From a virus, in the IMG/VR virus record IMGVR_UViG_3300044655_001046, positions 1 through 60,543 of that record: a stretch of DNA of 60,543 nt; one strand, 5' to 3'. Below are positions 1,308 through 47,634 of the stretch, piece after piece. Every line of letters starts with the position of its first letter. Positions within the stretch are counted from its first letter, which is position 1. The position numbers were made by a program, and so were the translations under genes. The notes under the pieces were generated by a model. It had not been told where the DNA came from. It did no database searches and saw nothing but the letters and a program-made list of their open reading frames with translations.

Positions 1308-2996
1308 TTAGTTTCTTAATGTTAAAAGTTCTTTAATTTGCTTTTGTTGTTCTTTTATAGCTTCTACTATTATTGGAATTAATTTTTCATATTGTACTGT
1401 TATGTAATTTTCCCCAGAAATGCTATTTCCATCGGAATCCGTATCAAAAGGAGCAGGTTTAACTATTTCAGGAGCAAAAGGTTTTATTTGCTGTGCTATC
1501 AATCCTATTTTTTTACTATAATCGTTATATCCAAACTTTTCTGCTAACTTATTTTGAGTAAAATAAATTCCACTTATACTTAATACTTTTTCTAAACAAT
1601 TTTCAATTTTGTTTATATTTTTCTTTAATCTTTGATCTGAGTATGCTGCTATGATATTTCCAGATGCTCGTATTTCTCCAGTTCCGCCAAGTGCAGCATT
1701 TACTCCTAATGTACTAAGATTATTGGCAGGAATTATTAAATTTGCTCCTTGGAATCCTTGTCTGCCTTGGAATCCTGCTATTCCAGCAACTCCTTGAGGA
1801 CCAGTAGCACCTACAGCGCCTTGTGCTCCTTGTGCTCCTTGCGGACCTTGTGCGCCTTGGAATCCTTGTCTGCCTTGGAATCCTGCTATTCCAGCAACCC
1901 CTTGAGGACCAGTGGCGCCAACTGCTCCCTGTACGCCTTGTGGTCCCTGTGGACCTTGGACTCCTTGTCTACCTTGAAATCCTGCTATTCCAACTGTCCC
2001 TTGAACTCCTTGCGGTCCAGTAGCGCCAACAGCACCTTGTACACCTTGTGGTCCCTGTGGACCTTGGACTCCTTGTCTACCTTGGAATCCTGCTATTCCA
2101 ATAGCACCCTGAACTCCAGTATTACCAGTAGCACCAACAGCGCCTTGAACGCCTTGTGGTCCTTGTGGTCCTTGTGCGCCTTGGAATCCTTGTCTTCCTT
2201 GAAATCCTGCTATTCCAGCATTACCAGTAGCACCTACAGCGCCTTGTGCTCCTTGTGGACCAGTAGAACCTTGAAACCCTTGTCTGCCTTGAAATCCTGC
2301 TATTCCAATAGCACCTTGCACACCAACATTACCAGTAGCACCTACAGCGCCTTGTGCTCCTTGTGGTCCAGTAGAACCTTGTATTCCTTGTCTACCTTGA
2401 AATCCTGCTATTCCAATAGCACCTTGCACACCAGCATTACCAGTAGCACCAACTGCTCCCTGAACTCCTTGTGGTCCCTGTGGACCTTGTGTGCCTTGAA
2501 ACCCTTGTCTGCCTTGGAATCCTGCTATTCCACTATTTCCAGTAGCACCAACTGCTCCCTGAACGCCTTGAGGACCAGTAGAACCTTGTATTCCTTGTCT
2601 ACCTTGAAATCCTGATATTCCGATAGCGCCCTGAACTCCAGCATTTCCAGTAGCACCAACCACGCCTTGTACGCCTTGAGGACCAGTAGAACCTTGAACG
2701 CCCTGCCTACCTTGAAATCCTGCTATTCCGATAGCACCCTGAACTCCAATATTACCAGTAGCACCCAAAGCACCTTGTACGCCTTGAGGACCAGTAGAAC
2801 CTTGTACTCCTTGTCTACCTTGGAATCCTGCTATTCCAGTAAATCCAACATTTCCAGTTATCCCAATATTTCCTTGAAATCCTTGATCTCCGGTTATATT
2901 TGTTGATGGACCTACCCAATGACCAGTTGAATTTGCGACAAGAGTATCCCCAACAATTAATCCGTTTTTTATTTCAAAGGGTTTATTTGTTGCCAT
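1308..2996 (-). CDS. Collagen-like tail fibre with C-terminal S74 chaperone
   Basis: A 562-residue fibre subunit. Residues 1-35 are a conserved N-terminal anchor ([10 protein letters not shown]). Residues about 36-430 are almost pure Gly-X-Y repeats built from blocks such as IAGFQGRQG and [14 protein letters not shown]. The last about 110 residues form a peptidase S74 intramolecular chaperone: the signature SDQRLKKNI carries the Ser and Lys positions used for self-cleavage in this family, and the end is a coiled coil ([14 protein letters not shown]). In the family this domain trimerises the fibre and is then released. It lies one base downstream of the 206-residue structural gene. A paralogous collagen gene follows downstream, and a second S74 chaperone ends the 1955-residue fibre at 14687. 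Confidence 0.9.
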
Positions 2997-2997
2997 T

Positions 2998-3618
2998 TTA
3001 TACCAAGATTAGTTGTCTTGTTAATTTTACTACGGTAGTAGCATTGGTTGGAGTAAATAATAAATTCATATTACCGGAAGTAATTGTAGCATCAAATGTT
3101 CCTAGAGAAGCATTTGTGAATATTTCTCCATATTGAGCGAGATAAACTGTTGTGCCGTTATGTATTAGTTTTAGTGTTATTGTATGATAATTTGTAGATG
3201 AAGTCATTTGCACTTCATAAGTTGCTGTTCTATATGTTGCTGCGGGAAAGCTGTCTAGTGTAATTTGATTTGTGGTTGTGGTAGTATAATTTTCCGAAAT
3301 TAAAACTGTAGAAGGTCCGATTTGAACGTCGCCAGAATATTGGGCAAGTTTTACTAATCCAGTGTCTAAAACTTCTATAGAAGGAATACCAGAAATATCA
3401 TTAACAGAGAATATTGTTCCAGACATTGAGTCTGTGATAGAGAATAATTGTCCGGCGTTACCTTCAAAAGAAAGTGTTCCGTTTGAAGTTGGGTATACAT
3501 TAAGAACAATATTCTTAGCATTTGTTGATGCGTCTGCTGCGGAAAACGTAATTTTTGGGTTAGTATTTGCTATACCAACATTAGGTTGAATTACTATATT
3601 TTGTTCGTTTAATGCCAT
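2998..3618 (-). CDS. Virion structural protein with fibre-tip-like C-terminal domain
   Basis: A 206-residue beta-rich protein, first gene after a perfect TATAAATA late promoter at 3649-3656. Its C-terminal about 100 residues (YEVQMTSSTNYHTITLKLIH...) closely match the C-terminus of the 334-residue protein at 10864: both share Y-x-V/I-Q-x-TSST-x-Y, L-x-LIH-x-GTT and SPTN/TPTN. I infer a shared exposed virion domain. The middle (SFEGNAGQLFSITDSMSGTIF) resembles repeats common in marine T4-like phage fibre proteins. It heads the transcript that includes the two collagen fibres, so a role at the fibre base or as an adhesin is likely. The exact function is unknown. Confidence 0.75.
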   Translation of the reverse strand: MALNEQNIVIQPNVGIANTNPKITFSAADASTNAKNIVLNVYPTSNGTLSFEGNAGQLFSITDSMSGTIFSVNDISGIPSIEVLDTGLVKLAQYSGDVQIGPSTVLISENYTTTTTNQITLDSFPAATYRTATYEVQMTSSTNYHTITLKLIHNGTTVYLAQYGEIFTNASLGTFDATITSGNMNLLFTPTNATTVVKLTRQLILV

Positions 3619-38003: not shown

Positions 38004-38771
38004 TTAGCCCCCGCTATAGTGTATACCAATAGCATCTGTGTGAGTACCTGTAGTTTTGTGATTCGGAGTATCTTCATTAATGCCGCCAGGAGCTTTATTA
38101 TTTATGGAACCAGTCGCAATTATATTAACATTTTTACCCGAAATGGTGATATTTCCTCCAGAATCTATAGAAATAAAACTTCCAGTTCTATGAATTAAAG
38201 TAACCCTTTCCGCGTTTGGAGTATCGTCTAAATCCAAATAATGCCCAGATTCAGTTTGTATTGAAAATACATATGGATATTTCCCTCCATGAGACTTACC
38301 ATATGGCGTTTGATCCATATTTTCGTTTCTAGCAGACCTGCTAATTGTTGGCTGATTTAATTCTCCGTCTCCAGGATATCTCGTTTGTCCAGAATGCAAT
38401 GTTCTTGGTCTTTGTTTTATTTCTTCTTCTGTTGCTGGGTCTGCAAAACCTTTTTCCTTAGGATACCTTATTTCTGGTATATTTGGAATTACCCCCATAT
38501 AAAACGGTACTTGCGCGTATTCTCCATCCATAAAAAACCCAAACAAAACTTCTCCTTCCTTTGGTACGTGAGAAATTTGGTATGCGTTTGCCGACATAAC
38601 AGGTTGCGCCCATAATAAACCGTCAGAAGGAACGTTTGATTTATCGTCTTTATGCCAACCAAAAATTCTAACCCTAACCCTACCAACTTTCAAAGGGTCT
38701 TTACGGTCTTCTACTATACCAGTCCACCAAATAAACCCATCCATCCCAGGGAAATTTTTAGTTTTTTCCAT
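38004..38771 (-). CDS. gp5: Baseplate hub spike gp5, OB-fold type without lysozyme domain
   Basis: A 255-residue protein. Residues about 12-100 are the gp5/VgrG OB-fold: WWTGIVEDRKDPLKVGRVRVRIFGWH closely parallels T4 gp5 (FVGVVEDRMDPLKLGRVRVR). T4 gp5 is 575 residues and carries a lysozyme domain after the OB-fold; here that domain is absent and the chain continues through a linker (ADPATEEEIKQRP) to a short beta-strand tip (SFISIDSGGNITISGKNVNI). Lysozyme activity appears instead on the tail protein at 44980. It is encoded 3 bases after the gp27-like hub gene, its expected partner. Confidence 0.85.
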   Translation of the reverse strand: MEKTKNFPGMDGFIWWTGIVEDRKDPLKVGRVRVRIFGWHKDDKSNVPSDGLLWAQPVMSANAYQISHVPKEGEVLFGFFMDGEYAQVPFYMGVIPNIPEIRYPKEKGFADPATEEEIKQRPRTLHSGQTRYPGDGELNQPTISRSARNENMDQTPYGKSHGGKYPYVFSIQTESGHYLDLDDTPNAERVTLIHRTGSFISIDSGGNITISGKNVNIIATGSINNKAPGGINEDTPNHKTTGTHTDAIGIHYSGG

Positions 38772-42647: not shown

Positions 42648-43391
42648 ATGGACAATACAAAATATTCGGAATGGCATGTTGTTGAATTAAAAGGCAAAAA
42701 ATATATTTTCAACCCGTTTTTTATGGGGGTTGGCGCTTGGGCAGAATTAACATTTACAAATTCTCCAGGAAGGTATGCAACAAACCAAGAAGAATTAAAT
42801 GAAGCGTTCTTTAAACAAAGAAAATTACCTTCTATGTATGAGAGGTTTAAAAACGCTTCTCCAGCAGAAAGATCTGCTCTAGCGAGTCAATCGATGGGTT
42901 GGTTAAATTTAAAAGTAAAGGCTTTAAAATCTAACGCTCCAGAACTGGACAAAATAATAAAGAAAAAGGTTTTTTATCCGGGAGGAATGTTTTTCTTTTC
43001 TTATGACGCAAAATATAAAGATACATTGCCTTATTGGGATAAATTTCCCCTGATAATTTTATTAGAAAATAAAGGTTCGCATTTTCTTGGGGTGAATATA
43101 CACTATTTACCCTATGAAGTTAGATCTTTGATTATAGCAGAAATAGCAAGCAAATCTCAATACATAAAAGAGAACGATATGTTAGTTTCTAATATAAGTT
43201 ATGAGATCATTAAAAGGTCTAAAAATTATAAAGATTTAAAAGAATATTGTATTAAACTGTATCTTAAATCTAATGTTAAAAGTAGGATACTGCCAGTAGA
43301 AGCGCACGAATGGTTATTTGCCGCAAACCTACCAGTAGCAGATATGCAAAAACAATCAAATTCAAAAGTTTGGAAGAAATATAAAAGATGA
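42648..43391 (+). CDS. Conserved T4-like phage protein of unknown function
   Basis: A 247-residue protein. Conserved-looking blocks are PGGMFFFSYDAKYKDTLPYWDKFPLIILL and FLGVNIHYLPYEVRSLI, a combination I associate with T4-like marine phages but cannot tie to a proven function. In T4, genes 2 and 4 are adjacent, so a gp2-like (DNA-end protector) role is one positional possibility, held weakly. It lies 18 bases after gp4, and its stop overlaps the start of the next gene as ATGA, so the two are translationally coupled. No signal peptide or membrane segment is evident. Confidence 0.6.
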   Translation: MDNTKYSEWHVVELKGKKYIFNPFFMGVGAWAELTFTNSPGRYATNQEELNEAFFKQRKLPSMYERFKNASPAERSALASQSMGWLNLKVKALKSNAPELDKIIKKKVFYPGGMFFFSYDAKYKDTLPYWDKFPLIILLENKGSHFLGVNIHYLPYEVRSLIIAEIASKSQYIKENDMLVSNISYEIIKRSKNYKDLKEYCIKLYLKSNVKSRILPVEAHEWLFAANLPVADMQKQSNSKVWKKYKR

Positions 43392-44065
43392 GCGAAATAA
43401 AATATAACTCAGATATAAGAAATTTTCTTGAAACTTTCTCTAAAACGGAAGTAGCAAGACCCTGTAACTTTGACGTTATGATCACCCCAACAAATCCGGT
43501 TTTTGCTTTGGATTTGATGGCGGCTGCAGGTCTTGACGGAGAAGACCCAGCTTCTGCTTGGAAAAAAATGAAATTTCACTGCGAAGCGGCAGAATTACCA
43601 TCAAGGACATTTTCTGCGGTTACGCAAAAGTTATACGGTCCAGAAATCCTACACCCAATACAAAATTCATATAACAAAATAAACCTAACTTTTATTTGCT
43701 CAGACAATATGATTGAACGTTGGATTTTTGAATATTGGATGAATTATATTTCAAACGCGTCTTTTTTCCCATTCCAAATAGGAATAGAAGACGTTGTTGG
43801 TCTATTTACTGACGGTCCAGTAGTAAACTACGATTTTAAATATAAAAATCAATACGAAGCATTTATATTAATCACGCAATATAACGTAAAAAACGACCCA
43901 TCGTATTGGGTTGGTTTGTTTCACGCATTTCCAATATCTTTAAACGAAATGCCCCTTTCTTGGGAAAATGGTAACGCAATACATAAACTAACAGTAACTT
44001 TTGCATACACATACTACAACGCAGCAATTCCTTTAGGTGGATCTATACCATTCCCAGTATTTTAA
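43388..44065 (+). CDS. Tail-tube-like protein, possibly baseplate tube initiator gp54
   Basis: A 225-residue protein with the pattern of tail-tube folds: FDVMITP near the N-terminus, CEAAELPSRTFSAVTQKLYGPE, then INLTFICSDNMIERWIFEYWMNYI and a C-terminal beta strand HKLTVTFAYTYYN. This arrangement occurs in T4 gp19 and the tube initiators gp48/gp54. It is larger than gp19 (163) and smaller than gp54 (320). Position between gp4 and gp26, near the gp48-like gene, favours the tube initiator. The start overlaps the preceding stop (ATGA). Confidence 0.65.
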   Translation: MSEIKYNSDIRNFLETFSKTEVARPCNFDVMITPTNPVFALDLMAAAGLDGEDPASAWKKMKFHCEAAELPSRTFSAVTQKLYGPEILHPIQNSYNKINLTFICSDNMIERWIFEYWMNYISNASFFPFQIGIEDVVGLFTDGPVVNYDFKYKNQYEAFILITQYNVKNDPSYWVGLFHAFPISLNEMPLSWENGNAIHKLTVTFAYTYYNAAIPLGGSIPFPVF

Positions 44066-44079
44066 TCATGGAGTAAATT

Positions 44080-44799
44080 ATGTTACCAAAAATCGAAAGT
44101 CCTTTGTATGAAACGACATTACCAATTTCAAATCAAACGGTTATGTTTAGACCTTTCCTAGTAAAAGAACAAAAAATTCTATTACTAGCAAAACAATCTG
44201 AAGACGCAGAATTCGCTTTAAATAATATTAAACAAATAATAAAAAATTGTTGTACCTCAGATATTGACGTTAACAAACTCAATCAAATAGACATAGAATA
44301 CTTTTTCCTACAACTTAGAGCAAGGTCTATTGGAGAAATTGTAGAAACAAAATATAGATGCAATAATAAAATAGAAGAAAATATTTGCGGGAACTTAATG
44401 CCGGTTTCTATAAACCTATTAGAAGTTTCTGTAGACAAAAAAGAAAATAACGACATAATTCGATTAACGGATAGTGTTGGGTTTAAAATGAAATATCCTG
44501 ATATTGCAGAATTGTCTAAATTGAATACTGAAATTACTGACGCCGTTACCCTAACATTAGAGGTAATTTATAACTCATTAGATTACATATTCGACGAACA
44601 AAATTTCTATTACAAAAACGAAACGCCAAAATCAGAGGTATTAGAATTTTTAGAATCTATGTCTATTGATCAATTTAAAAAGGTAGAAGAATTTTTCAGC
44701 AATTTACCAGTATTAAAAGAAACCCTAACGGTAAAATGTTCTAAATGTGGGTTTGTACACGATATTGATATTGTAGGTCTTGATAATTTTTTAGGGTAA
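44080..44799 (+). CDS. gp26: Baseplate hub / tail assembly protein gp26
   Basis: A 239-residue protein of the T4_baseplate family (gp26 group): LPKIESPLYETTLP...MFRPFLVKEQKILLLA is its hallmark N-terminus, followed by YFFLQLRARSIGEIVETKYRCNN and a C-terminal CSKC pair. A GGAG ribosome site lies before the ATG. In T4, gp26 is needed for hub assembly. Its last codons are aat-TTT-TTA-ggg-taa, containing the heptamer T-TTT-TTA, and an open -1 frame continues past the stop into gp51-like sequence. Some ribosomes may therefore make a 299-residue gp26-gp51 fusion, as lambda-type phages make G and GT chaperones. The large tape-measure-like gene follows. Confidence 0.85.
   Translation: MLPKIESPLYETTLPISNQTVMFRPFLVKEQKILLLAKQSEDAEFALNNIKQIIKNCCTSDIDVNKLNQIDIEYFFLQLRARSIGEIVETKYRCNNKIEENICGNLMPVSINLLEVSVDKKENNDIIRLTDSVGFKMKYPDIAELSKLNTEITDAVTLTLEVIYNSLDYIFDEQNFYYKNETPKSEVLEFLESMSIDQFKKVEEFFSNLPVLKETLTVKCSKCGFVHDIDIVGLDNFLG
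44787..44793 (+). promoter_or_regulatory. Candidate -1 programmed ribosomal frameshift site (T TTT TTA)
   Basis: The heptamer fits the X-XXY-YYZ rule in the gp26 reading frame (codons 237-238, TTT TTA) and is the same heptamer used by HIV-1 gag-pol. A slip here bypasses the TAA at 44797 and enters the 61-codon open frame ending at 44978. AGGT at 44775-44778, 8 bases upstream, could act as an SD-like stimulator. A perfect 5-bp hairpin (44842-44855) exists but lies 48 bases downstream, too far to be a classical stimulator. Confidence 0.6.
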
Positions 44800-44978
44800 C
44801 TCTTTCTCATGATAATTTGGAAAACTATTATAAAACAAATTTTGCAATGATGCAACATCACAAATATAGTTTATCTGAACTAGAAAATATGATCCCGTGG
44901 GAAAGAGAAGTGTTTTTGAATTTATTATTACAACATATTAACGAAGAAAACGAAAAACTAAGTCAAAATAGGAACTAA
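44793..44978 (+). CDS. gp51: gp51-like extension of gp26 in the -1 frame
   Basis: An open frame of 61 codons after the slippery site encodes RVTLSHDNLENYYKTNFAMM and then QHHKYSLSELENMIPWEREV, ending EENEKLSQNRN. This is the small gp51-like protein (baseplate hub assembly) usually annotated separately in marine T4-like phages. The first in-frame ATG (44847) lies within the conserved part, after the characteristic NLENYYKTNF, and has no Shine-Dalgarno; there is no ATG upstream of it in this frame. I therefore read it as the C-terminal part of a gp26-gp51 frameshift product. A separately initiated 43-residue version from 44847 or 44850 is the alternative. Confidence 0.7.
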   Translation, partial: RVTLSHDNLENYYKTNFAMMQHHKYSLSELENMIPWEREVFLNLLLQHINEENEKLSQNRN

Positions 44979-44979
44979 A

Positions 44980-47634
44980 ATGGCGTTACCAGCACTAAAC
45001 AACAAAAATGCTATTGGGAATTTATCCTTAGACGATAAATCGCAAATATTAACGTCATTGGTTCAATCGGGAAAACTCCAATTAGTAAATTATGGAGCCA
45101 TAAACCTCAATCAAAACGTTACTTCCAACGCTACTGCAACAAAAGAGAATTCTTCGAATTATTTTGGAGAAGCAATGGTAAGGGCATTGGAAAACATTAA
45201 AGGGCTTCTATTCGATTTAAACAATAACATTTTACGTTATATCGAAACGACATCAACGAGTCAACAAGTAACACAAAACCTTCTAGAATCAAAAGCAAAG
45301 GACATTGAAGTTACTAAAACCGCAGGTGGGATTGGGATAGGAAAAGAAAACCTAGAAAAATTCTATAAAATTTTTGAGTCCATGAATAATGGAATTCTAA
45401 AATTGTCCGAAGGTGTTGGTATAGGAGGAACGTTCGGAACTGGTAAAGGATTTTTGGGAAGTTTATTAGGGTCATTATTACCAAAACTTCTAAAAGGGTT
45501 TTTATTTGGTGCTGCCGGTGCTGGAATCTATAAAGCGATAGATTGGTTGGATGATAGAGAGATGAATAACTCTCCTTGGGAAAAGGCGAAGAAATTCGCA
45601 AAAGATACATTAGGTTTAGAGTTTGAAGAAGAGGGAGAAAACCAGGAACAAAGAACCGCAGAACAAACCGGAACAGGTACAACCCCAACAACAGGGACCC
45701 AAACAGAAACTCGCTCCCAACAAACTTCTCCAGGAGCAGGAACAACACCTACTGGAAGGTTAGTACAAGTTGCCGAAAAATTTGAGGGCATGACAGAAAA
45801 GGCAAACAAAAAAGAATTAGAAGCATTTTTTAAAACAAATTTGGGTTCTGGTTTTGGGATATCAGAAGCTTGGTGCGCAACATTCGTTAATTCTGTCTTA
45901 TCTGCCAATGGATATAAAAAATCAAAATCAGTAAAAAGTGCAAAAAGTTTCTTAACTTATGGAGAAGCAGTAAATTTAAATGACGCGAAACCCGGAGACA
46001 TAGCTGTATTTAATAGAGGTACAGATAAAAATAAGGGGCACGTCGGTTTTGTTGTTTCTTTAGACGGAAACATGATTACTATAATTGGAGGAAATCAAGG
46101 TACAAAAGGTGGCGGCGGAGTAACAAGATCTACAAGAAATACCAAAAAGAAAAATCACGAATTGGTCGCTATAAGAAGACCAACAGAAAAAGAAAGTGAG
46201 TCTGCATATAAAGAACCTAGTTTACCTCAAACACCCCAAACAACTCCAGTACAGCAAAATGAAACGCCAAAACTTGCAGATGATATCAAAAAGAAAGGTG
46301 TCACAGCACAACAACAAAATGTACCGTCAGAAATAGAAGAGGAAGAAGAACAAGAAGAAACTTCAGAAAAGGTCCAAGAAGACCCCTCGCTAAAAAAAGA
46401 AACTGCAACAAAAGAAACAGCAACACAATCAAACGAAAAGAAAGTTTTTGACTTTTTCGTTAGTAAAGGGTTTACAAAAGAACAAGCAGCAGGTATTACT
46501 GGAAGTTTAAAAATAGAAAGCCCCACCTTCAATCCCAACCAAAAACAAAAAGGTGGTGGTCCAGGGAGAGGTATCGCTCAATGGTCTGTTGATGGTCCTA
46601 GATTTAAAGAATTGAAAGCTAGAAAAGGTGATAAGTGGAACACCCTTAATGGACAATTAGAATATATCTACGAAGAAATAACAGGACAAACAAAACATAA
46701 AGAATACGGAAATGTTTATAAAGGCATAAAGTCTGCAAAATCCGCAAAAGAAGCAACTGAAATTTGGACGAAAGAATACGAAAAAGCTGGGAAAGAAAAT
46801 ATGACCCAAAGGATTTCCGCTGCAGAAGGAATTCTTAAAAAATATTCAATAGGTTCTACAGAAACAGAACTAGCTCAAGAAACCCCAAGTACTGGAGATG
46901 CAGCAAAGCCAAAAGGACAACAAACAGATACAGAAGAACAACCAAAAGAAAAAACTTTGGTCGATACTCTAAAAGACGCTTTTGGTTCTACTCTTGAAAA
47001 TATTACAAAACCCGGAAATATTAAATCAGTGGTTGATGAGGGTTTATATCAAGGATTGTCTGCTATAGGAGAAGGATTCACTTTTGCTGGAGTTGAAGGT
47101 TTTGATAATTCTAGGTTAAGGAAACTCAAGAAACCAGAAGAAACTATTGACGAAAAAATAGTTAGAAAGGCTACTGATTCCTCCAGACCAGAAGAAACTA
47201 TTGACGAAAAAATAGTTAGAAAGGCTACGGAGTTCTTCAGACCAGAAGAAACTATTGACGAAAAAATAGTTAGAAAGGCTACTGATTCCTCCAGACCAGA
47301 AGAAACTATTGACGAAAAAATAGTTAGAAAGGCTACGGAGTTCTTCAGACCAGAAGAAACAGCAAATCTACAACCAAACGTTAAAGAAGAATTATCCGGA
47401 AAACGATTAGAAGAAACCACAAAAAATAATGAATCGCTTAAAGAATCGAAAATGGAAGCAATAAAAGCCCCACAAGAATCTCAAGCGCCAAATATAAACG
47501 TCAATGCTCCTGTGAGCGGTGGAAATGGCGGCGGAGACGATTTTGCAGCTGGTGGTATATCTAAAATGGACGTTAGAGATTCGGTATTACACCAAATGCA
47601 ATATAGAAAAGGTTCTTCATCAGCTTTGGTATAA
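44980..47634 (+). CDS. Tape-measure-like tail/hub protein with endopeptidase and lysozyme domains
   Basis: An 884-residue protein encoded directly after gp26/gp51. Residues 60-125 are helical, and 145-195 are a glycine-rich hydrophobic segment (GFLGSLLGSLLPKLLKGFLFGAAGAGIY), as in tape measures. Residues about 260-400 form a CHAP/NlpC-like peptidase: EAWCATFVNS gives Cys299 and KGHVGFV gives His354. Residues about 488-624 form a phage tail lysozyme domain (VFDFFVSKGFTKEQAAGITGSL, candidate Glu513, GRGIAQWS). Then follow four 18-residue repeats (PEETIDEKIVRKAT) and an acidic C-terminus. Linkers are Thr/Pro/Glu-rich. It probably supplies both peptidoglycan cuts during DNA entry, because gp5 here lacks a lysozyme. 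It may be the counterpart of T4 gp29. Confidence 0.8.
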   Translation: MALPALNNKNAIGNLSLDDKSQILTSLVQSGKLQLVNYGAINLNQNVTSNATATKENSSNYFGEAMVRALENIKGLLFDLNNNILRYIETTSTSQQVTQNLLESKAKDIEVTKTAGGIGIGKENLEKFYKIFESMNNGILKLSEGVGIGGTFGTGKGFLGSLLGSLLPKLLKGFLFGAAGAGIYKAIDWLDDREMNNSPWEKAKKFAKDTLGLEFEEEGENQEQRTAEQTGTGTTPTTGTQTETRSQQTSPGAGTTPTGRLVQVAEKFEGMTEKANKKELEAFFKTNLGSGFGISEAWCATFVNSVLSANGYKKSKSVKSAKSFLTYGEAVNLNDAKPGDIAVFNRGTDKNKGHVGFVVSLDGNMITIIGGNQGTKGGGGVTRSTRNTKKKNHELVAIRRPTEKESESAYKEPSLPQTPQTTPVQQNETPKLADDIKKKGVTAQQQNVPSEIEEEEEQEETSEKVQEDPSLKKETATKETATQSNEKKVFDFFVSKGFTKEQAAGITGSLKIESPTFNPNQKQKGGGPGRGIAQWSVDGPRFKELKARKGDKWNTLNGQLEYIYEEITGQTKHKEYGNVYKGIKSAKSAKEATEIWTKEYEKAGKENMTQRISAAEGILKKYSIGSTETELAQETPSTGDAAKPKGQQTDTEEQPKEKTLVDTLKDAFGSTLENITKPGNIKSVVDEGLYQGLSAIGEGFTFAGVEGFDNSRLRKLKKPEETIDEKIVRKATDSSRPEETIDEKIVRKATEFFRPEETIDEKIVRKATDSSRPEETIDEKIVRKATEFFRPEETANLQPNVKEELSGKRLEETTKNNESLKESKMEAIKAPQESQAPNINVNAPVSGGNGGGDDFAAGGISKMDVRDSVLHQMQYRKGSSSALV
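47134..47360 (+). repeat. 54-bp tandem repeat, four units in ABAB order
   Basis: Units begin at 47134, 47188, 47242 and 47296, with a partial fifth at 47350. Units 1 and 3 read identically, as do units 2 and 4, and A and B differ only in the last third (ACTGATTCCTCC versus ACGGAGTTCTTC). They encode PEETIDEKIVRKAT followed by DSSR or EFFR within the tape-measure-like protein. The exact alternation implies a recent duplication of a 108-bp block. Confidence 0.9.

Follow-up and report, generated by a model that had tools for sequence, protein, structure and literature searches.

The window analyzed here, positions 1 to 60,543 of the IMG/VR record IMGVR_UViG_3300044655_001046 of an uncultured virus, carries on its plus strand a gene for gp26 (positions 44080..44799). 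The gene encodes 239 amino acids in the zero frame; the protein matches Pfam PF12322 (T4_baseplate; E 4.1e-51) and PHROG 150 (E 5.5e-56), and these matches together with an AlphaFold model identify it as a putative short tail assembly chaperone (TAC-N). The 3' end of gp26 reads AAT TTT TTA GGG TAA and includes the slippery heptamer T_TTT_TTA (TTTTTTA; 44787..44793, plus strand), which is followed after 3 nt by the zero-frame stop codon TAA (44797..44799, plus strand). An earlier note, made from the sequence alone, had recognized this heptamer correctly but gave TTT TTA as the last codons of gp26, which in fact closes with the sense codons TTT TTA GGG. The note also proposed that a −1 slip at T-TTT-TTA bypasses the TAA and opens a frame of 61 codons, and our check of the sequence and its reading frames agrees. 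The −1 frame, gp51, spans 44793..44978 on the plus strand, with its stop codon at 44976-44978; its product matches PHROG 634 (“baseplate hub assembly catalyst”; E 6.4e-27) and is the putative C-terminal extension, TAC-C.

Upstream of gp26, a gene at 43388..44065 (plus strand) encodes a tail tube-like protein (PHROG 45, E 1.7e-28). By its position, this protein is probably gp54, the baseplate-tail tube initiator; gp54 is annotated directly upstream of gp26 in three relatives (L085, L086, and L088), and the upstream order of gp4, gp2, and the tail-tube-like protein in the window is that of a Vibrio relative. The next gene after gp51 (44980..47634, plus strand) encodes a protein of 884 amino acids with CHAP and phage tail lysozyme domains (PF18013, E 1e-30; PF05257, E 2e-9). 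As the earlier note stated, this gene is large and follows gp51 directly; its tape-measure nature, also stated there, is that of a candidate. The protein has one hydrophobic stretch, its matches to tape-measure families either score weakly or stem from the lysozyme domain, and we consider it a candidate tape measure or tail lysin. Near-identical repeats (RPEETIDEKIVRKAT...) occur in its C-terminal part, at about 47050-47420 of the window. In five relatives (L002, L005, L008, L010, and L129), the gene after gp51 encodes GH19, an M23 peptidase (alone or paired with tail lysozyme), or T4-type lysozyme, and some genes at this place in relatives showed no domain of this kind; wall-hydrolase domains are interchangeable in this gene, the window having the CHAP and tail lysozyme pair. 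The gp5-like hub protein of the window (38004-38771) has only 255 aa, and its similarity to hub-and-lysozyme families is largely confined to their N-terminal part; the tail lysozyme may have moved from this hub to the gene at 44980-47634.

We compared the gp26-gp51 junction across 127 loci encoding gp51 relatives. This set consisted of 116 loci from IMG/VR, identified with a protein pattern, 10 isolate or named phage records, and the window, and contained a few near-duplicates; scans with gp51 of Vibrio and Sinorhizobium phages added few loci. Hosts of these loci include Synechococcus, Prochlorococcus, Pelagibacter, Vibrio, Sinorhizobium, Ochrobactrum, and Desulfovibrio. The earlier note had suggested that related junctions be aligned in search of a conserved slippery heptamer, and T_TTT_TTN was present in register, at the same position at the end of gp26, in 127/127 loci. 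The last base of the heptamer is C in 107 loci, T in 12, A in 6, and G in 2, the window having A, and the zero-frame stop codon usually lies 3 nt past the heptamer. The first Phe codon of the heptamer is always TTT, compared with 71.5% TTT elsewhere. At other gp26 codon positions in the 127 loci, T_TTT_TTN occurs 19 times in 29,958; given this background, 0.08 of 127 loci would be expected to carry it at one fixed place. There are 97 distinct junction sequences among the 127 loci, and clustering of the loci by gp26 identity gives 46 groups at 70% and 16 groups at 50%; because the loci are related, they do not represent 127 independent events, and the 16 groups are the safer count. Judging from these alignments, the slip signal in T4-like gp26 is real and ancient.

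Within the AT-rich window, bare TTTTTTA strings are common, although below expectation (47 observed vs. 79 expected). In-register T_TTT_TT occurs at 4 of 18,021 codon positions in the coding genes of the window, and only the occurrence at the end of gp26 adjoins a stop codon. A chance T-run at the end of gp26 is ruled out by this in-register rarity and by the conservation in 127 loci. Homopolymers are error-prone, and a sequencing or assembly error in the T-run could make a gene that is truly a single frame appear as two; however, the frames are identical in all 127 loci, including the isolate genomes P-SSM2, S-PM2, P-SSM4, and S-CAM1, which already refute such an error, and we give this explanation practically no credence.

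The gp51 frame matched 567 phage records by tblastn, and we aligned the protein sequences of 23. In the window, the earliest ATG, GTG, or TTG of the −1 frame is a TTG at codon 9 (44817), and no ATG occurs before codon 19 (44847); no Shine-Dalgarno motif was found before either codon, and the protein is conserved from codon 1, consistent with the earlier claim that the conserved part begins before any ATG and lacks a ribosome site. In 32 sequences with no start in codons 1-18, differences at −1 codon positions 1, 2, and 3 numbered 1883, 1598, and 3962, respectively, a pattern that indicates protein-level constraint in the −1 frame upstream of any possible start. Across relatives, the absence of a gp51 start anticipated in the note was found in part: 65/127 loci, the window among them, have no ATG, GTG, or TTG in the first eight −1 codons, whereas about half have one within the first five, near the zero-frame stop, and in those relatives some termination-reinitiation is possible. 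In only 3/127 loci is there a Shine-Dalgarno motif ahead of a potential start within −1 codons 1-11.

These observations bear on an alternative in which gp51 is a small protein in its own right, translated from a start codon of its own or by ribosomes that terminate on gp26 and then reinitiate. It is annotated as such in the GenBank entries of several phages, and in P-SSM2 and S-PM2 the fourth codon past the slip site is an ATG. We nonetheless regard a separate gp51 as very unlikely, given the many loci with a startless beginning to a conserved frame, the inconsistency of annotated starts among phages, and the invariant T6, which a separate gene would leave unexplained; in the window, the positions of the TTG and ATG and the lack of a Shine-Dalgarno motif at both rule out an independent start. 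Public annotations omit gp51 in S-CAM1 and S-CAM8 and vary its internal start in Mosig and vB_OspM_OC (loci L082, L092, L088, and L090); we attribute these missing or variable annotations to the frameshift, which misleads annotation.

Sequences that might stimulate slipping differ among the loci. Among the relatives, 19/46 groups have a strong Shine-Dalgarno-like motif 8-17 nt upstream of the heptamer; at other positions in gp26 its frequency is 0.43%. A conserved Glu-Gly accounts for much of the enrichment, but at this site the Glu codon is GAG or GAA at a ratio of 18:12, compared with 63:225 for Glu before Gly elsewhere (odds ratio 5.4, p 2.5e-5, for groups that are not fully independent). 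The window has no upstream Shine-Dalgarno-like stimulator, and its sequence 3' of the heptamer folds no better than shuffled sequences (z +0.46); both results count against the frameshift reading, as neither element is there to indicate a slip rate. RNAalifold found no consensus base pair 3' of the heptamer in 94 distinct junctions or in the 46 group representatives, and together with the shuffles of the window this rules out a conserved 3' RNA structure as a general stimulator. In relatives, the mean downstream folding z is −1.3, compared with −0.5 in control stretches, a weak excess that comes from a few loci. Hairpins are located directly 3' of the slip site in L057 (about 2631-2668; GGGCTCTC-TCAC-GAGAGCCT) and L004 (about 2995-3032; GGACTTTC-TCAC-GAAAGTCT). 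Both are perfect hairpins; their stems differ by paired changes, and the TCAC loop is identical. Whereas a −1 site of the dnaX type is stimulated by an upstream Shine-Dalgarno-like motif, a 3' structure, or both, the window has neither. We tentatively suggest that stimulators may turn over around the conserved T6, with GGAGG or GAGGG about 10 nt upstream in many lineages, a hairpin in a few, and a bare A-ending heptamer in the lineage of the window, although the odds lean somewhat against this scenario. If it is true, the ratio of the short to the extended product may differ between T4-like lineages.

The same comparison bears on transcriptional slippage, in which RNA polymerase slips on the T-run and yields frame-shifted mRNAs. 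The site is a homopolymer of six T, and 12 of the 127 loci have a run of seven or more; however, most relatives have exactly TTTTTTC, and a run of this length is short for efficient transcriptional slippage. In addition, the register T_TTT_TTN suits tandem tRNA slippage, and the upstream motif enriched in relatives is of a kind that acts on ribosomes. We consider transcriptional slippage highly improbable.

AlphaFold2 modeled gp26 of the window with a pLDDT of 92.7, based on an alignment of 65 sequences comprising the window and locus proteins. In a realignment with VIA-align, the best match to residues 1-93 of this model was 3fgx (Z 8.1), followed by the HK97 tail assembly chaperone 2ob9 (Z 7.2, rmsd 3.8, 83 residues aligned) and YqbN 3klu (Z 6.8). 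Below these came a Vibrio PICI-like protein (5ir0, Z 5.5), and no unrelated chain exceeded 3.1; by VIA-align's own note a Z of 7-8 is middling, but the leading rows are clear of the rest. Beyond residues 1-93, the model had no match in the PDB. Foldseek matched the model to viral models of the gp26 family; against the PDB alone, it returned nothing below E 0.3 and listed the HK97 chaperone at E 3.3, so the likeness to this chaperone stands out only after realignment. A gp26 profile had no match among sequences of solved structures. Based on these comparisons, the N-terminal domain of gp26 is predicted to be TAC-like, with a resemblance to the TAC fold at moderate Z.

Based on the conserved heptamer, the startless and conserved −1 frame, homology to T4 gp51, and the TAC-like predicted fold, we infer that gp26 and the gp51 frame belong to a single TAC gene, in agreement with the proposal of the earlier note that they are −1 frameshifted tail assembly chaperones. 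We hold with high confidence that slipping at T_TTT_TTA would yield the chaperones TAC-N and TAC-NC in a ratio set by the slip rate, although what is observed is the sequence, its conservation, the homology, and the fold similarity, from which we deduce that ribosomes slip, how often they do so, and that the products act as chaperones. Most ribosomes would stop at the TAA and release the 239-aa TAC-N; in a minority, both tRNAs would slip back one base at the heptamer and translation would continue in the −1 frame, producing a roughly 299-aa TAC-NC whose junction reads ...DNFLRVTLSHD.... Both forms would chaperone the tape measure during assembly of the tail tube and be absent from the finished tail. 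In short, it is very probable that a single gene of this uncultured T4-like phage gives rise to a tail-building helper protein in two sizes. For marine T4-like phages, the annotation of gp26 as “baseplate hub” and gp51 as “baseplate hub assembly catalyst” would then be replaced by that of one frameshifted TAC gene, and the 127 loci provide a sizeable collection of natural slip sites, some accompanied by stimulators and others not.

T4 differs from the window in arrangement. In T4, gp51 is 249 aa long; residues 1-201 match the gp26 family PF12322 (E 3.9e-52; hhalign probability 97%), the C-terminal part matches PHROG 634 (E 1.2e-23), and PHROG 150 spans the full length. T4 gp51 consists of a gp26-like domain and a gp51 domain, which means that the long form has a gene of its own in T4, its product being equivalent to the predicted fusion product of gp26 and gp51 in the window. 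Although the T4 proteins are homologous to those of the window, their two genes are separate and lie on opposite strands; T4 gene 26, which ends GAG TTC TTT GAG, has neither the heptamer nor an open −1 frame. A separate long-form gene of the T4 style was not found in the window record, in which there was a single gp26 match (a fragment). By this arrangement of frames, the window has the frameshift form rather than the T4 split-gene form. Vibrio phage PVA23, a member of T4's family Straboviridae, retains the frameshift form.

In lambda (gpG/gpGT) and HK97, the TACs are produced by −1 frameshifting shortly before the short form terminates. The lambda heptamer is GGGAAAG and differs from T_TTT_TTA in the window; the gp26 N-domain model resembles the structure of the HK97 chaperone, and the profile search against solved-structure sequences found no sequence similarity to lambda or HK97 TACs. 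Among T4-like phages, Vladimirov, Gautam, and Davidson (Virology 2022;566:9-15) are said to have identified the TAC genes, with frameshifting reportedly conserved in several groups and T4 using genes 26 and 51. According to the PRFect paper (PMC10885494, citing Vladimirov et al. 2022), the short TAC and the fusion are encoded by distinct genes in some T4-like phages, and the Adele paper (PMC12846349, citing the same study) refers to polyT slippery sequences as known −1 signals in T4-like TAC-N genes. By the statements in these two papers, TAC frameshifting in T4-like phages has already been described and the window locus is a known type of system; its reading as TAC-N and TAC-NC is well supported, and it adds a member rather than a new principle. 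The T4-like TAC-N and TAC-NC involve the same genes (gp26 and gp51) as the window, which differs in coming from an uncultured virus and in a heptamer that ends in A rather than the prevailing C. Phage Adele (Vandenendeviridae/Andersonviridae) resembles the window in having a polyT −1 site where its TAC-N gene ends (PMC12846349), but with a GTTTTT motif and in other phage families.
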